Shown here: positions 3,986 through 54,992 of the stretch, piece after piece | Layout of the letters: every line of letters starts with the position of its first letter | Position numbering within the stretch: the stretch's first letter is position 1 | Assembly: GCA_900319695.1 (NCBI GenBank) | Contig: ONPN01000004.1 | Span: 22,979-86,978, forward strand | Source: an uncultured Eubacteriales bacterium | Lineage (GTDB): Bacteria; Bacillota; Clostridia; Oscillospirales; Oscillospiraceae | Direction of reading: 5' to 3' | Length of the DNA stretch: 64,000 nt | Notes under the pieces: model-generated | The model's database searches: none | What the model saw: only the letters and a program-made list of their open reading frames with translations | What the model was told of the DNA's origin: nothing | Translations under genes and position numbers: made by a program

Positions 3986-4816
3986 ATGGAGCTGCACGTC
4001 AGCATCCTCGACCCCACGGGCAACATCACCGCCCTGGTGGAGAGCGAGGTTGAGATCACTCGTCAGCCCGCCGTTGCCGCCGAGATCATGCGCCGCCACC
4101 CGGAGGTGGAGCAGGTCGGTTTCCTGCGTCCCGCCTCCGGGGACGGCGTTGCGGCGGAGCTGCGCATGGCCGGGGGCGAGTTCTGCGGCAACGCTTCCAT
4201 GTGCGCCGCCGTGCTCTGCCGCTTGAATGGCATTCAAGGAGACGAAGCAATTCGCCTCCGGGTCTCCGGGACAAAGCAGCCGGTGTCGGTCCGTCTCAGG
4301 CGCGAGGCCCCAGACCGTTTCCGAGCCGAGCTGACCATGCCGTCCGCGCTGGGCATTGAGGAGAGAGCCTTCCGCTTTGAAGGTATAGGCAGCGTGCTTC
4401 CCCTTGTCCGCCTCGAAGGGATCTCCCACGTCATCGCGGAGCCTGCCTCCCCCTTCTTTTCACTCCTTGAAAACCGGGAGGCCGCCGAAGGTGCTGTGCG
4501 CTCCTTCTGTAAAGAGCTCCGCGCCGAGGGGCTGGGCCTGCTGTTTTTGGACGGCAGCGGAGCTGAGCGCCGCATGACGCCGCTTGTGTATATTCCCGGC
4601 AGCGGGACGGTCTTCTGGGAAAACTCCTGCGCCAGCGGCAGCGCCGCCGTGGGCGTCTGTCTTGCGAAAAGGAGCGGCGCGCCGGTCGATCTTTGCCTCC
4701 GTCAGCCCGGCGGGACGCTGCGCGTTTCATGCGATCCCAGGAGCTTTGCGCCCCGTCTCGGCGGCAGCGTCAAACTTATTTCGAGCTTTTCGGAAAATTT
4801 TTCAGAAAGCTGTTGA
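3986..4816 (+). CDS. DAP-epimerase-fold amino-acid racemase (CntK/histidine racemase-like)
   Basis: A 276-residue PLP-independent racemase. It has the two-cysteine layout of the diaminopimelate epimerase fold: Cys67 in [10 protein letters not shown] and Cys215 in [10 protein letters not shown]. In DapF the equivalent motifs are MCGNG and ACGTGA. The GGEFCGNA variant is what I associate with broader amino-acid racemases such as staphylococcal CntK (histidine racemase) rather than true DapF. It is the last gene of an amino-acid ABC importer operon, 3 nt behind the ATPase, so its substrate is probably the imported amino acid or its enantiomer. A separate DapF-like domain occurs in the window, fused to CarB. 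Histidine as substrate is inference only. Confidence 0.75.
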
Positions 4817-4842
4817 CAAATGGGACATTGATATGGTATATT
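4813..4842 (+). promoter_or_regulatory. sigma-A promoter of the tRNA cluster
   Basis: TTGACA (4813-4818), an 18-bp spacer and TATATT (4837-4842), overlapping the stop codon of the racemase gene and ending 24 bp before tRNA-Gly. Confidence 0.8.
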
Positions 4843-4866
4843 CTCAAGGCTGAATGGGGACGACGT

Positions 4867-4940
4867 GCGGGTGTAGTTCAATGGTAGAACACCAGCCTTC
4901 CAAGCTGGATACGTGGGTTCGATTCCCATCACCCGCTCCA
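4867..4940 (+). tRNA. tRNA-Gly(TCC)
   Basis: Full cloverleaf with acceptor GCGGGTG pairing with CACCCGC, discriminator T and an encoded CCA. The anticodon loop CTTCCAA gives TCC. First gene of the cluster. The 60 nt to the next tRNA contain a short hairpin (GAAGCA/TGCTTC). Confidence 0.95.
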
Positions 4941-5000
4941 GCGTCGGAAGAAGCAGGCCACATTATGCTTCCCGATCTTGTTGGCGCGGTCAGCATATAC

Positions 5001-5077
5001 GCGCCAATAGCTCAGCAGGATAGAGCAACTGCCTTCTAAGCAGTAGGTCGGGGGTTCGAATCCCTCTTGGCGTGCCA
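5001..5077 (+). tRNA. tRNA-Arg(TCT)
   Basis: Acceptor GCGCCAA pairs with TTGGCGT (first pair G-T). The anticodon loop CTTCTAA gives TCT, and CCA is encoded at 5075-5077. Structured repeat copy A begins 4 nt after the CCA. Confidence 0.93.
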
Positions 5078-5080
5078 GGA

Positions 5081-5200
5081 CGTCAGAAGAAACTTACTCC
5101 GTTCCGCTTTCGCGGTTTGCGTAAGTGCCGCGAAAGCTCCACATCCGTAAGTTCCTTCTTCCTTTCAAACACAAACCCGCTTCGCTGGGCTTTGTGTTTG
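5081..5200 (+). repeat. 120-nt structured repeat, copy A
   Basis: One of three copies (the others are 5549-5667 and 53497-53616). All begin CGTCAG. They share an outer stem (here GAAGAA 5086-5091 with TTCTTC 5156-5161), a central hairpin (10-bp stem 5106-5115/5128-5137, loop TTTGCGTAAGTG) and a 3' hairpin of copy-specific sequence (CAAACACAAA 5166-5175 with TTTGTGTTTG 5191-5200). Stem sequences differ between copies but pairing is kept. It abuts tRNA-Arg. I do not recognise it as a named family. Confidence 0.8.
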
Positions 5201-5348
5201 GCGAGGGAACAAACCTGTTCCGTTTCACGCGGTCGTGCGGTCAGGTTTTTGATATAGACTCTCCGCCGGGAGAGCAGCAGAACAACAACTTCAAAGCCTG
5301 GCTTTGAGTTTATGATAGGACGTGCGGGAAGCCGCACGGACAGATATG
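5201..5348 (+). repeat. hairpin-rich spacer between tRNA-Arg and tRNA-His
   Basis: There is no gene here. Four consecutive short perfect or near-perfect hairpins are visible: GGAACA/TGTTCC (5206-5221), CTCTCC/GGAGAG (about 5259-5274), TCAAAGCC/GGCTTTGA (about 5290-5306) and GTGCGG/CCGCAC (about 5322-5337). The last lies just before tRNA-His. They may act as processing or termination signals in the tRNA transcript. Confidence 0.55.
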
Positions 5349-5424
5349 GTGGGATTAGCTCAGTTGGTAGAGCACCGGATTGTGGTTCCGGGTGTCGTGG
5401 GTTCGAGCCCCATATCCCACCCCA
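5349..5424 (+). tRNA. tRNA-His(GTG)
   Basis: Acceptor GTGGGAT pairs with ATCCCAC. Discriminator C73 faces an encoded G at 5348 (the tRNA-His G-1), and CCA is at 5422-5424. The anticodon loop TTGTGGT gives GTG. Confidence 0.95.
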
Positions 5425-5474
5425 CTAAAAACGAGCCGAGGCCGGCCTCGCCGGTCTCGGTTTTGAAATATCAT

Positions 5475-5548
5475 TGGGATGTAGTGTAATGGTAACACAC
5501 CGGACTTTGACTCCGATATAGTGGGTTCGAGTCCCGCCATCCCAGCCA
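5475..5548 (+). tRNA. tRNA-Gln(TTG)
   Basis: Acceptor TGGGATG pairs with CATCCCA, discriminator G, encoded CCA. The anticodon loop CTTTGAC gives TTG. The outermost anticodon-stem pair (27-43) is a C-A mismatch. Structured repeat copy B starts on the base after the CCA. Confidence 0.93.
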
Positions 5549-5667
5549 CGTCAGAGGAAGCTCGCGCCGCTCCGTTTCCGCGGTTTGCGTAAAGGCCGCG
5601 AAAACTGCACTATGCTCCCTTCCTCTTCCTTTCCAAATCGAAACCGCTTTGCCGGGTTTCGATTTGG
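5549..5667 (+). repeat. 119-nt structured repeat, copy B
   Basis: Same architecture as copy A, starting CGTCAG immediately after the tRNA-Gln CCA. The outer stem GAGGAAG (5554-5560) / CTTCCTC (5619-5625) shows a compensatory change against copies A and C. The central hairpin is 5574-5583/5596-5605 with loop TTTGCGTAAAGG. The 3' hairpin pairs 5633-5645 with 5655-5667, in a sequence unlike those of A and C. Confidence 0.8.
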
Positions 5668-5747
5668 GGAGACGCGGCAAAACATAGTCTTGAGAGGAAG
5701 AATAATGGCATCGGTCAAATGACCTTATGACGTTATTCCGACGATAT

Positions 5748-5823
5748 GCCCCAGTAGCTCAGGAGGTAGAGCACCTGCCTTTTAAGCAGGGTGTCCGGGG
5801 TTCGAGTCCCCGCTGGAGCACCA
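5748..5823 (+). tRNA. tRNA-Lys(TTT)
   Basis: The anticodon loop CTTTTAA gives TTT and CCA is encoded at 5821-5823. Acceptor strands GCCCCAG and CTGGAGC pair except for C3-A70; a T at position 3 would restore the stem. The last 29 nt are repeated exactly at 5964-5992, and the last 21 at 6146-6166. A terminator-like hairpin (arms 5824-5835 and 5850-5861) begins on the next base. Confidence 0.9.
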
Positions 5824-5861
5824 ACCGCAGACAGCTCGCCACTCGGCGGGCTGTCTGTGGT
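5824..5861 (+). terminator. hairpin following tRNA-Lys
   Basis: A 12-bp stem (5824-5835 with 5850-5861, one G-T pair) enclosing a second small stem CGCC/GGCG. Only a short T-run follows, so termination here may be partial. Confidence 0.6.
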
Positions 5862-5963
5862 TTATGGGTTTATCTGGATCGAACCACGGGCACCTAAACG
5901 CGAAGCGTTTTTTGAGCGAAGCGGAATAAGCTGCGAAGCAGGCCGCGCCAGCGGCAGGCTTCG

Positions 5964-5992
5964 CCGGGGTTCGAGTCCCCGCTGGAGCACCA
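5964..5992 (+). repeat. second copy of the tRNA-Lys 3' end (29 nt, exact)
   Basis: Identical to 5795-5823, including the T-arm, acceptor 3' strand and CCA, but with no upstream tRNA body. It is followed at once by its own terminator (CCACCCC 6002-6008 / GGGGTGG 6013-6019, then TTGTTTTTTT). This looks like an attachment-site scar or a tail replacement. Confidence 0.85.
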
Positions 5993-5996
5993 AAAG

Positions 5997-6029
5997 AACA
6001 GCCACCCCTTTCGGGGTGGTTGTTTTTTT
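5997..6029 (+). terminator. Rho-independent terminator after tRNA-Lys tail copy 2
   Basis: GC-rich stem CCACCCC/GGGGTGG with a TTTC loop, flanked by pairing A and T residues and followed by seven Ts (6023-6029). Confidence 0.8.
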
Positions 6030-6145
6030 CATGCCGACGGGGACTCGAATCATCATCGAAAGCCCCGGCGGGGCTTTCATCGTCCAGTGCGCACACTGGG
6101 CGATACCTCTATTTGCGCCGATCTCCCGCGAGGCGCAAATGCATG

Positions 6146-36216: not shown

Positions 36217-36261
36217 GATTTCAGTTTTAAAACCGATGCGCGCCCGGAGGATACGCGCGTC

Positions 36262-36412
36262 GGTTAGCGCCGGGACCGTGATAGGTTGACGAGGTTGGCG
36301 GTGATCGAAAGATTCGGCGGATGCCGCCACGGCTCACAGTGGGTCGCAAGGGAAAGGTTAAAAAGCAGAATCAAGACTGCAACAGAGCCTCCCCGGACAC
36401 TGAATAACATTT
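36262..36412 (+). ncRNA. glmS-type GlcN6P-activated ribozyme upstream of nagB
   Basis: The conserved glmS core is present in order: AGCGCC (36266-36271) with the scissile bond between 36266 and 36267, TTGACGAGG (about 36286-36294), the P2 strand TGGCGG (36296-36301), ATCGAA, TTCGGCGGATG (about 36313-36323), and the pairing strand CCGCCA (36324-36329). P2 differs from the Bacillus and Thermoanaerobacter sequences I recall but is fully complementary. P1 is very short. The 3' pseudoknot and P3/P4 (GCAG/CTGC at about 36367-36383) follow. Just 5' of the cleavage site a 10-bp hairpin forms (36233-36242 with 36254-36263). Such ribozymes normally control glmS; here the gene is nagB, 18 nt downstream. 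Confidence 0.88.
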
Positions 36413-53442: not shown

Positions 53443-53447
53443 CGGAT

Positions 53448-53496
53448 TAGAGTCCGGGGAAACCCCCGCCGAAGCCGGGGAAGCCGCCTCCGCCCT
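53448..53496 (-). repeat. duplicated ffh C-terminal tail
   Basis: A 49-nt stretch, including the stop codon, matches the end of ffh (53619-53667) at about 45 of 49 positions. Read on the minus strand it encodes GGGGFPGFGGGFPGL and a stop, like ffh itself; the differences appear synonymous. It has no start codon of its own with a ribosome-binding site. The 120-nt repeat copy C separates the two tails. Confidence 0.85.
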
Positions 53497-53616
53497 CGTC
53501 AGAAGAAGCTCGCTGCGCTCTGTTTCCGCGGTTTGCGTAAGTGCCGCGAAAACGCCGCGTCCGCTCCCTCCTTCTTCCTCTCCGATTCAAACCCGCTTTT
53601 CCGGGCTTTGAATCGG
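53497..53616 (+). repeat. 120-nt structured repeat, copy C
   Basis: Same architecture as copies A and B: CGTCAG start, outer stem GAAGAAG (53502-53508) / CTTCTTC (53571-53577), central hairpin 53522-53531/53544-53553 with loop TTTGCGTAAGTG, and a 3' hairpin CCGATTCAAA/TTTGAATCGG (53582-53591 with 53607-53616). It ends 2 nt from the ffh stop codon, in antisense orientation to ffh, between two copies of the ffh tail. Confidence 0.82.
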
Positions 53617-53618
53617 TT

Positions 53619-54992
53619 TTAGAGTCCGGGGAAACCTCCCCCGAAGCCGGGGAAGCCACCGCCGCCCATGCGGCCCATTTTCTTTTGCAGCTTCTTCATG
53701 TTCTTGCCGGAAAGCTGCTTGGTCATCTGCTGCATGGCCTCGAACTGCTTGACGAGGCGGTTGACGTCGACCACCGTGGTGCCGGAGCCCGCGGCGATAC
53801 GCTTTTTGCGGCTGGAGTTGAGGATGGCGGGATTTTCACGCTCAGCCTGCGTCATGGAGAGGATGATCGCCTCCTGACGGGACATGGCCTTGTCGTCGAG
53901 CTTCGCGCCCTTGAGGGCCTTCGCGTCGACGCCGGGAATCATGCTGAGGACACTTTCCAGATCGCCCATGTTCTTGAGCTGGTTCATCTGGTCGAGATAG
54001 TCGCTCAGCGTAAAGCGGTTGGCGCGCAGCCTCTCGGCGGCCTCAAGGGCCTTCTTCTCGTCGAAGCTCTGCTGCGCCTTCTCGATGAGGGTCAGCATGT
54101 CGCCCATGCCGAGGATGCGGGAAGCCATGCGGTCGGGATAGAAGGGCTCGATCATGTCGAGCTTTTCGCCCACGCCGATGAACTTGACGGGCTTGCCGGT
54201 GGCGGCCGTGATGGAGAGGGCCGCGCCGCCTCTCGCGTCGCCGTCGAGCTTGGTGAGCATGACGCCGGTCACGTCCAGCGCTTCATCAAAGGCGGTGGCC
54301 GCGCTGACGGCGTCCTGACCGGTCATGGCGTCGACCACGAGCAGGATCTCGGCGGGCTCCACGGCGGCCTTGATGTTCTTCAGCTCGTCCATGAGCTGGG
54401 CGTCGATGTGGAGACGTCCGGCGGTGTCGAGAAAGACCAGGTCGTTGCCGTGCTTCTTTGCGTGCTCCACGGCGGCCTTCGCAATATCGACGGGATTCGT
54501 CGTGCCCATCTGGAAGACGGGGATGTCGAGCTGCGCGCCGACGGTTTCAAGCTGCTTGATGGCGGCAGGACGGTAGATGTCGCACGCGGCGAGCAGCGGG
54601 CGCTTGCCCTGCTTGCGCATATAGGCGGCGAGCTTGGCGCCGTTCGTGGTCTTGCCCGCGCCTTGCAGGCCGACCAGCATTACGACGCTCGGCGACTTGG
54701 AGCTGATGTTCAGCTTGCGGTTCTCGCTGCCCATCAGGTCGCAGAGCTCCTGGTTGACGATCTTGATGACCATCTGCGCGGGGTTCAGGGCCTCGAGCAC
54801 GTCCGTGCCCACGGCCTTCGCGGTGACGGACTTGGTGAAGTCGCGCACCACTTTGTAGCTGACGTCCGCCTCGAGCAGCGCCATGCGCACCTCGCGCATC
54901 GCGTCCTTGACGTCGTTCTCTGTCAGTCTGCCCTTGCCGCGCAGCTTTTTAAACGCCTCATTCAGTTTTTCAGATAAGCTCTCAAATGCCAT
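53619..54992 (-). CDS. ffh: signal recognition particle protein Ffh
   Basis: A 457-residue SRP54 GTPase: N domain (residues 1 to about 90), G domain with GLQGAGKTTNGAKLA (P-loop), DTAGRLHID (G3) and TKLDGDARGG (G4), and a Met-rich M domain (about residues 300-445) that binds SRP RNA and signal peptides, including QMTKQLSGKNMKKLQKKMGRM. The C-terminus is a Gly/Phe/Pro tail. It follows ylxM by 3 nt. The tail is duplicated downstream, with a structured repeat in between, so the present 3' end may have been acquired with that repeat. Confidence 0.97.
   Translation of the reverse strand: MAFESLSEKLNEAFKKLRGKGRLTENDVKDAMREVRMALLEADVSYKVVRDFTKSVTAKAVGTDVLEALNPAQMVIKIVNQELCDLMGSENRKLNISSKSPSVVMLVGLQGAGKTTNGAKLAAYMRKQGKRPLLAACDIYRPAAIKQLETVGAQLDIPVFQMGTTNPVDIAKAAVEHAKKHGNDLVFLDTAGRLHIDAQLMDELKNIKAAVEPAEILLVVDAMTGQDAVSAATAFDEALDVTGVMLTKLDGDARGGAALSITAATGKPVKFIGVGEKLDMIEPFYPDRMASRILGMGDMLTLIEKAQQSFDEKKALEAAERLRANRFTLSDYLDQMNQLKNMGDLESVLSMIPGVDAKALKGAKLDDKAMSRQEAIILSMTQAERENPAILNSSRKKRIAAGSGTTVVDVNRLVKQFEAMQQMTKQLSGKNMKKLQKKMGRMGGGGFPGFGGGFPGL

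Follow-up and report, generated by a model that had tools for sequence, protein, structure and literature searches.

A family of CGTC-tagged double hairpins at tRNA and other gene ends in Oscillospiraceae, probably mobile DNA moved in trans

We describe a family of repeats, each composed of a CGTC tag, a long core hairpin and a second hairpin at the 3' side, that occurs in rumen and gut bacteria, only sporadically beyond its genus in the Oscillospiraceae, and has no Rfam match. Sequence comparisons indicate, at a probability that we would put at roughly 0.6, that the copies are mobile DNA hairpins, non-autonomous and moved in trans. The family was first noticed in a window of 64,000 nucleotides from an uncultured Eubacteriales bacterium (GenBank assembly GCA_900319695.1, contig ONPN01000004.1, positions 22,979 to 86,978), and an original prediction, made from the letters alone, had offered a mobile element, an RNA-processing or termination module, or a small RNA as readings. 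The mobile-element reading is the best supported of these, while the RNA-processing or termination reading loses ground to the scarcity of T-runs behind the element and of G-U pairs in its core.

All three copies in the window (A, B, and C; Table 1) lie where they had been reported, each opening with CGTCAG, and the distances of copies A and B from their tRNA genes agree with ARAGORN. The three sequences likewise carry the 12-nt loop that had been described (TTTGCGTAAGTG, with TTTGCGTAAAGG in copy B), an outer stem whose two sides change together, and 3' hairpins that differ among copies yet pair. The fold of each copy beats 200 of 200 dinucleotide shuffles on both strands, with z-scores for copies A, B, and C of -6.2, -4.2, and -4.6 (+ strand) and -7.3, -5.1, and -5.2 (- strand). 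A point absent from the earlier account is that copy C sits between two 49-nt ends of the ffh gene. The window also holds the remnant of an element 5' end behind tRNA-Gly, a position at which fuller copies stand, likewise at 1 nt, in two other genomes (G027, L083:1219; G054, L127:1505). Elsewhere in the window, the 3' end of tRNA-Lys recurs as an exact 30-nt copy 140 nt past the gene (5795-5824 and 5964-5993), with a hairpin and a separate repeat-like stretch in between, and a glmS ribozyme lies at 36255-36404 (62 bits, Rfam).

Table 1. Elements, their parts, and associated repeats in the window
Feature	Position	Strand	Context	R1 score or similarity
Copy A	5081-5200	+	3 nt past ARAGORN tRNA-Arg(TCT)	110 bits
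Copy A, CGTC tag	5081-5084	+		
Copy A, core hairpin	5081-5169	+		
Copy A, 3' hairpin	5166-5200	+		
Copy B	5549-5667	+	abuts ARAGORN tRNA-Gln(TTG), 0 nt	90 bits
Copy B, core	5549-5636	+		
Copy B, 3' hairpin	5633-5667	+		
Copy C	53497-53616	+	antisense to ffh; hairpin end 2 nt from ffh stop codon	99.5 bits
Copy C, core	53497-53585	+		
Copy C, 3' hairpin arms	53582-53594 and 53604-53616	+		
ffh left direct repeat (displaced second copy of gene end)	53447-53495	+		92% identity to 53619-53667
ffh right direct repeat (true ffh 3' end)	53619-53667	+	ffh on - strand, 53619-54992 (TIGR00959, 602.9 bits)	
Remnant of element 5' end, CGTCGGAAGAAG	4942-4953	+	1 nt past tRNA-Gly(TCC)	
Decayed copy of second subtype (subtype by eye)	5693-5743	-	immediately before tRNA-Lys; stretch missing in G106	

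In the home genome, an assembly of 96 contigs that totals 2.82 Mb and is 79% complete, blastn found 24 matches at E up to 10, 13 of them clear (E <= 2.5e-8), and a covariance model built from 10 home-genome copies, hereafter R1, was used to follow the family further. Matches to R1, a few of them the palindrome read from its other strand, were found in 49 of 61 sampled genus genomes (home included) at 1 to at least 44 per genome, scoring being capped at 44 candidates in each, and in none of the others. The original prediction had hinged on further copies in related genomes and on the lack of a described Rfam counterpart, and both were borne out: Rfam yielded nothing above gathering threshold over the elements save tRNAs, and a permissive search reached at most 17 bits, i.e., chance level. 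Among 38 genomes of other families only three marginal R1 hits appeared, and a wider draw from the order gave matches in 5 of 294 other genomes, three of the same family and two of other families. An exact pattern search of named genomes returned 94 stretches, by title mostly Oscillospiraceae, Ruminococcaceae, and Clostridiales MAGs, with many from ruminants and with Oscillibacter included, the copies of which score 48-51 bits with R1; the cultured Oscillibacter sp. 1-3 has two at 51 bits. The element was present on four viral contigs, and a search of phage and plasmid records with copy A as query found no match. In all, 220 matches collapse to 175 distinct copies, with a unit length of ~120 bp that rises to ~165 bp in arrays. 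The original prediction had not recognised the family, and the literature searched holds no earlier description of it; the sole relevant prior family is that of the CGTC-tagged REPs (PMC3733652), beside which, going by the accessible part of that paper, the tag places it. Neither do the accessible parts of RepRanger (PMC12306157) and of a structured-RNA survey of human microbiomes (PMC8040213) describe this hairpin family.

The core spans 89 nt, with 13 + 3 + 10 pairs and usually a 12-nt loop, and is followed by TCCTTTCC and the second hairpin; some array units finish in ...ACCA ahead of the next CGTC. The tag, which lies outside the paired part of the model, reads CGTC in 153, TGTC in 5, and CCTC in 2 of the 175 copies, and the first core pair is A-T in 102 and the second G-C in 96 of 108 copies. 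When 110 copies (108 distinct) were aligned to R1, 94.6% of 2797 cells at the 26 pairs were paired, a percentage that flatters, since R1 scores decided which copies entered the set and R1 also guided their alignment. The covariation that had been suspected from three copies is strong in this larger set: both sides change at 22 of the 26 pairs. Such changes fill 386 cells, compared with 120 (sd 12) after shuffling and 11 to 51 for slid partners, the latter a control that uses the same alignment rows as the real pairs.

The two strands pair unequally, a point that the original prediction passed over. Among the 10 home copies, pairing reaches 95.0% on the strand that ends in GACG and 84.9% on the strand first read, and the difference arises mainly from three fixed positions (16-87, 27-77, and 37-67) that are G-U in 288 of 321 cells across the 110 copies. 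The GACG-ending strand thus bears three fixed G-T wobbles along with GGA/GA internal loops, and it is because of these wobbles and purine loops that we infer it to be the strand that folds. The other 23 pairs comprise 2476 cells, where G-U (16) is just as rare as A-C (18), whereas 44 comparison tRNAs from the same loci have G-U at 70 of 960 pairs (7%), a figure based on ARAGORN's own stems, where mismatches may be hidden. Since RNA helices tolerate G-U, a core in which it is as rare as A-C suggests that the pairing is maintained in DNA rather than in ordinary RNA. The original prediction had spoken of selection on structure, and at the RNA level this is unsupported, G-U not being tolerated outside the three fixed positions and a T-run behind the 3' hairpin being found in few copies.

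Conservation is distributed unevenly along the element. The internal loops have a mean majority share of 0.88-0.90, and loops and tag together of 0.88-0.95, while the variable helix columns (18-23 and 80-85) average 0.60. Conserved ends and loops around a variable helix are the pattern expected from a protein that reads ends, loops, and shape. A purely mutational origin, in which the elements would be old insertions and template switching would overwrite one arm of an imperfect palindrome with the other, would account for double changes whose intermediates are few, and as rare on one strand as on the other, and for the diversity of the 3' hairpins, the stems of which begin with 54 distinct 8-nt versions among 161 hairpins. 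Such a process should, however, erase mismatches, and here the three wobble pairs and both internal loops are kept; it also leaves placement and spread unexplained, and we consider it distinctly unlikely.

The 3' hairpin behaves somewhat differently from the core. Its stem reaches at least 9 pairs in 165 of 169 copies, and on the + strand G-T outnumbers A-C (49 vs 16 of 2224 cells), so that strand symmetry does not fit there, the excess perhaps reflecting in part a conserved tip. These long stems, the strong folds, and the sense-strand G-T excess speak for a transcribed RNA module behind genes (e.g., a terminator, a 3'-end protector, or a tRNA-processing element) in which the RNA structure would be selected. 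Against such a module stand the rarity of G-U in the core by comparison with tRNAs and the poorer pairing of the sense strand. Moreover, at least 4 T in the 8 nt past the hairpin are seen in only 38 of 165 copies and TTTT within 12 nt in 26. The terminator reading was dropped over these few T-runs: like an intrinsic terminator the element places a hairpin behind genes, but the T-run is weak or absent in most copies. We regard an RNA module as unlikely overall, with two further points, one on each side, given below under placement and site occupancy.

Variation also extends to the tip, which occurs with short loops, with the 12-nt loop, and in a ~51-nt version that is 39 nt longer; a tip longer by these 39 nt is what separates otherwise near-identical copies at the same site in two genomes (G000 and G106). 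A second subtype, distinguished by eye, has the same ends and another interior (L283 = L360 in G050, L357 in G033, and part of L339 in G106).

Placement was counted for 171 copies with at least 25 nt of flank. Forty-five begin 0, 1, or 3 nt past a same-strand tRNA, of nine amino-acid kinds with Leu (16) and Arg (11) foremost. Another 44 have CCA at most 3 nt upstream and no abutting called tRNA, against ~8 by chance at equal base frequencies, many of these being array spacers. Protein-coding genes are marked as well (e.g., jag/eloR; L006, NF041568): 14 copies start -2 to +3 nt from where a same-strand ORF of 80 codons or more stops, by heuristic ORF calls, and eight lie directly past another stop triplet (~3 expected). 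Two copies instead have their hairpin end close to the 3' end of a gene on the opposite strand, and the remaining 58 fall into none of these classes, with no gene end recognised there. These 58 include copy C and the other ffh copy (L054), at both of which the ORF heuristic missed the gene end; at copy C, ffh is displaced by a longer overlapping frame (53541-54977). Attachment to gene 3' ends, as originally claimed, fits 111 of 171 copies, a few of which are owed to chance.

Outside the genus, the pattern recurs at 4 of 9 loci, where copies stand 1 nt behind tRNA-Thr (G345), 0 nt behind tRNA-Asp (G228) and, by coordinates, directly behind tRNA-Lys (G228) and tRNA-Leu (G351). Three copies in G352 either lie 2 nt from where tRNA-Glu begins or come next in its array, and the fetched stretch around two copies in G125 contains no tRNA. 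The hairpin end is never behind a tRNA 3' end in the nearest-feature list, and in one copy (L037) it has a tRNA of the opposite strand beginning 4 nt away. This fixed orientation, with the CGTC end behind same-strand tRNAs, would also suit an RNA module. Insertion behind hairpins was considered and set aside, as left flanks were not clearly richer in stems than controls (observed/upstream/shuffled: tRNA 7/5/4.7 of 30, CCA-like 5/22/5.7 of 42, stop 9/5/5.3 of 22, other 19/12/12.3 of 58). A different hairpin stretch was also seen behind tRNA genes at three loci (L088, L097, and L110), where ~100 nt are enclosed by two repeats of the 3' end of that same tRNA, one inverted and one direct.

Comparison of the same sites across genomes bears on how copies came to be there. 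The spacer between tRNA-Arg and tRNA-His, readable in 29 of 30 loci, contains by eye full copies, decayed copies, other sequences, or a bare 6-14 nt. The ffh site is filled in 5 of 29 readable loci (30 fetched; G000, G106, G037, G050, and G099), and on the far side a second ffh gene end with stop codon is present in G000, G106, and G050 and in raggeder form in G099. The repeat measures 49 nt at 92% identity in G000 and 58 nt with one difference in G106, and no direct repeat was detected at the insertion in G037. A further copy (L048) is flanked by a 43-nt repeat of the aspS end (NF001750), and flanking repeats also occur at L039 (46 nt), L073 (26), L090 (24), L189 (21), and L125 (15). Filled, decayed, and empty states of one site, judged by eye, together with long direct repeats of gene ends at a few copies, point to insertion as the origin of the copies, a reading that is comparative and drawn from incomplete assemblies; that empty sites are common also counts against an RNA module. 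A flanking direct repeat accompanies 21 of the 165 copies examined; among 1641 shuffled pairings, 22 show one. Fourteen of the 21 are array partners or have array-type spacers and seven stand alone (~2 expected), so that target duplication was rejected as a general rule, and the mobile-element reading draws its weight from the other lines of evidence.

Neighbouring copies less than 400 nt apart are arranged head-to-tail in the same orientation in 39 of 39 pairs, about ten of which are loci fetched twice, and in the commonest arrays 71-75 nt separate the units. For 36 of 110 copies the nearest relative is in the same genome (array partners included), where 6 would be expected, and the likeness between copies that occupy a shared site in two genomes (0.81) barely exceeds that of random pairs (0.78). 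These nearest relatives within genomes and the low likeness at shared sites favour repeated local spread and insertion hot spots over plain descent.

Several observations concern the sequences around the copies. In five arrays (L005, L071, L009, L026, and L078) the spacer, ...AACACTCGTACCA or ...GGTTCGGATTTGGATTGCCCCGGTGCACCA, resembles a tRNA acceptor end and is directly followed by the next CGTC. Several copies in G039 (L108, L109, L122, L124, L126, and L128) share a longer repeated context (...gacgcctcgcat|CGTCAAACG...aggacgagcag...), and there the element may travel within a larger repeat. At L125 (~1430-1600) a copy is flanked on both sides by the parS-like palindrome TGTTTCACGTGAAACA. 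Lastly, five tRNA-Arg/His spacers from which the element is absent (L304, L307, L308, L311, and L312) contain another conserved hairpin, acgccagagggtggcagc...ccaccctcccggcgg, with variants, that is perhaps a distant cousin of the element.

The most similar known repeats are the CGTC-tagged REPs (Di Nocera, De Gregorio, Rocco 2013, PMC3733652). According to the accessible part of that study, these are 20-40 bp long with stems of 8-9 bp and loops of 4-5 nt, carry an unpaired CGTC (with TGTC and CCTC variants) at one palindrome end, have A-T at stem positions 1 and 2 and a 3-nt unpaired tail that is mostly CCA, lie, as REPs do, mainly downstream of coding regions, and adjoin no dedicated transposase gene. 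They form mostly head-to-head dimers, head-to-tail ones being negligible, and occur in five phyla, Bacillota not among them; no mobiliser of them was known in 2013, and none has appeared since in the literature searched. The one-ended unpaired tag, the gene-end position, and the lack of a linked transposase, judged here from 30 Y1 loci, are common to both, and the present family is akin to CGTC-tagged REPs on these grounds. Its stem opens with A-T followed by G-C, not with two A-T pairs, and with ~120 bp, two hairpins, 26 core pairs, a usual 12-nt loop, and exclusively head-to-tail neighbours the family is not a member; as far as can be seen, it works like a CGTC-tagged REP.

Other hairpin systems offer partial parallels. 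GTAG REPs, according to the accessible parts of two papers, are moved by RAYT (IS200/IS605-like Y1) transposases, the substrate of Y1 enzymes being single-stranded DNA (PMC3733652, PMC6006769). A tagged hairpin at gene ends is shared with them, a single-stranded form being presumed for the present family, but the tag is not GTAG, no linked Y1 gene was found, and several copy-rich genomes lack a Y1 match. With a MITE the comparison fails in that, by reading, CGTCAG... at one end and the 3' hairpin at the other do not form inverted repeats (no inverted pair of at least 14 nt occurs at 4800-6100 of the window) and that flanking repeats of 15-58 nt or none take the place of a target duplication of fixed length.

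Integron attC sites provide another model, in which a tyrosine recombinase would recombine one folded strand site-specifically. The bottom-strand fold, stems kept by pairing, a variable terminal structure, and arrays in direct orientation are all features that the family shares with attC. Its ends (CGTCAGA / TTCTTCC) are by reading nevertheless unlike the attC core boxes (GTTRRRY / RYYYAAC), no cassette genes were seen between copies less than 400 nt apart, and copies stand behind many unrelated genes; we think recombination of this kind improbable.

The search for a mobiliser concentrated on two enzyme classes. Y1 transposases match in 40 of 71 genomes and in none of the home genome, G043, G027, G051, G054, G018, and G042, which, allowing for incomplete assemblies, led us to reject them as the mover; beside 30 fetched Y1 loci the best R1 match was 14.1 bits, i.e., no linkage. 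No long, ORF-bearing version of the element came to light when 36 loci were roughly inspected as far as 1.6 kb upstream, although several of the 36 are chance matches. Reverse transcriptase fared no better. The precise CGTC junction, the loose far junction, and the direct repeats of variable length at a few copies would fit target-primed reverse transcription of an RNA ending in UGACG, but RVT_1 is without a match in 12 of 20 genomes (incomplete assemblies), including the copy-rich G043 (22 matches, 91% complete), G042, G018, G033, G045, and G051, which makes retrotransposition very improbable.

Returning to the mobile DNA hairpin, each unit combines its CGTC tag with a long hairpin, the purine internal loops of which are conserved, and with a second hairpin that varies freely. 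We infer that its working form is single-stranded DNA and that a trans-acting enzyme recognises the folded, GACG-ending strand, and this enzyme would join the CGTC end to the DNA just behind a gene 3' end, mostly a tRNA CCA and otherwise a stop codon. The CGTC end is the precise junction and the far end a loose one; most copies lack a detected flanking repeat, and in a few, 15-58 nt of the gene end or another target are directly repeated. The patchy copy number among genomes speaks for this reading. Against it count the 58 copies away from recognised gene ends, the many sites without a detected repeat, the failure to find a transposase beside the element, and the G-T excess in the 3' hairpin. 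That this amounts to a new kind of transposition in Oscillospiraceae and relatives, in which an enzyme acting in trans reads a folded single-strand hairpin, joins its CGTC to gene 3' ends, foremost tRNA CCA, and builds head-to-tail arrays, is a tentative proposal to which we give odds well short of even.

Two implications follow from these data. First, strong covariation of the textbook kind need not imply RNA, and the near absence of G-U from a core such as this one points to DNA hairpins. Second, what mobilises CGTC-tagged repeats becomes a testable question, because the present family is larger, has copy-rich and copy-free relatives within one genus, forms precise junctions with CCA and stop codons, and carries conserved loops that a binding protein could read.
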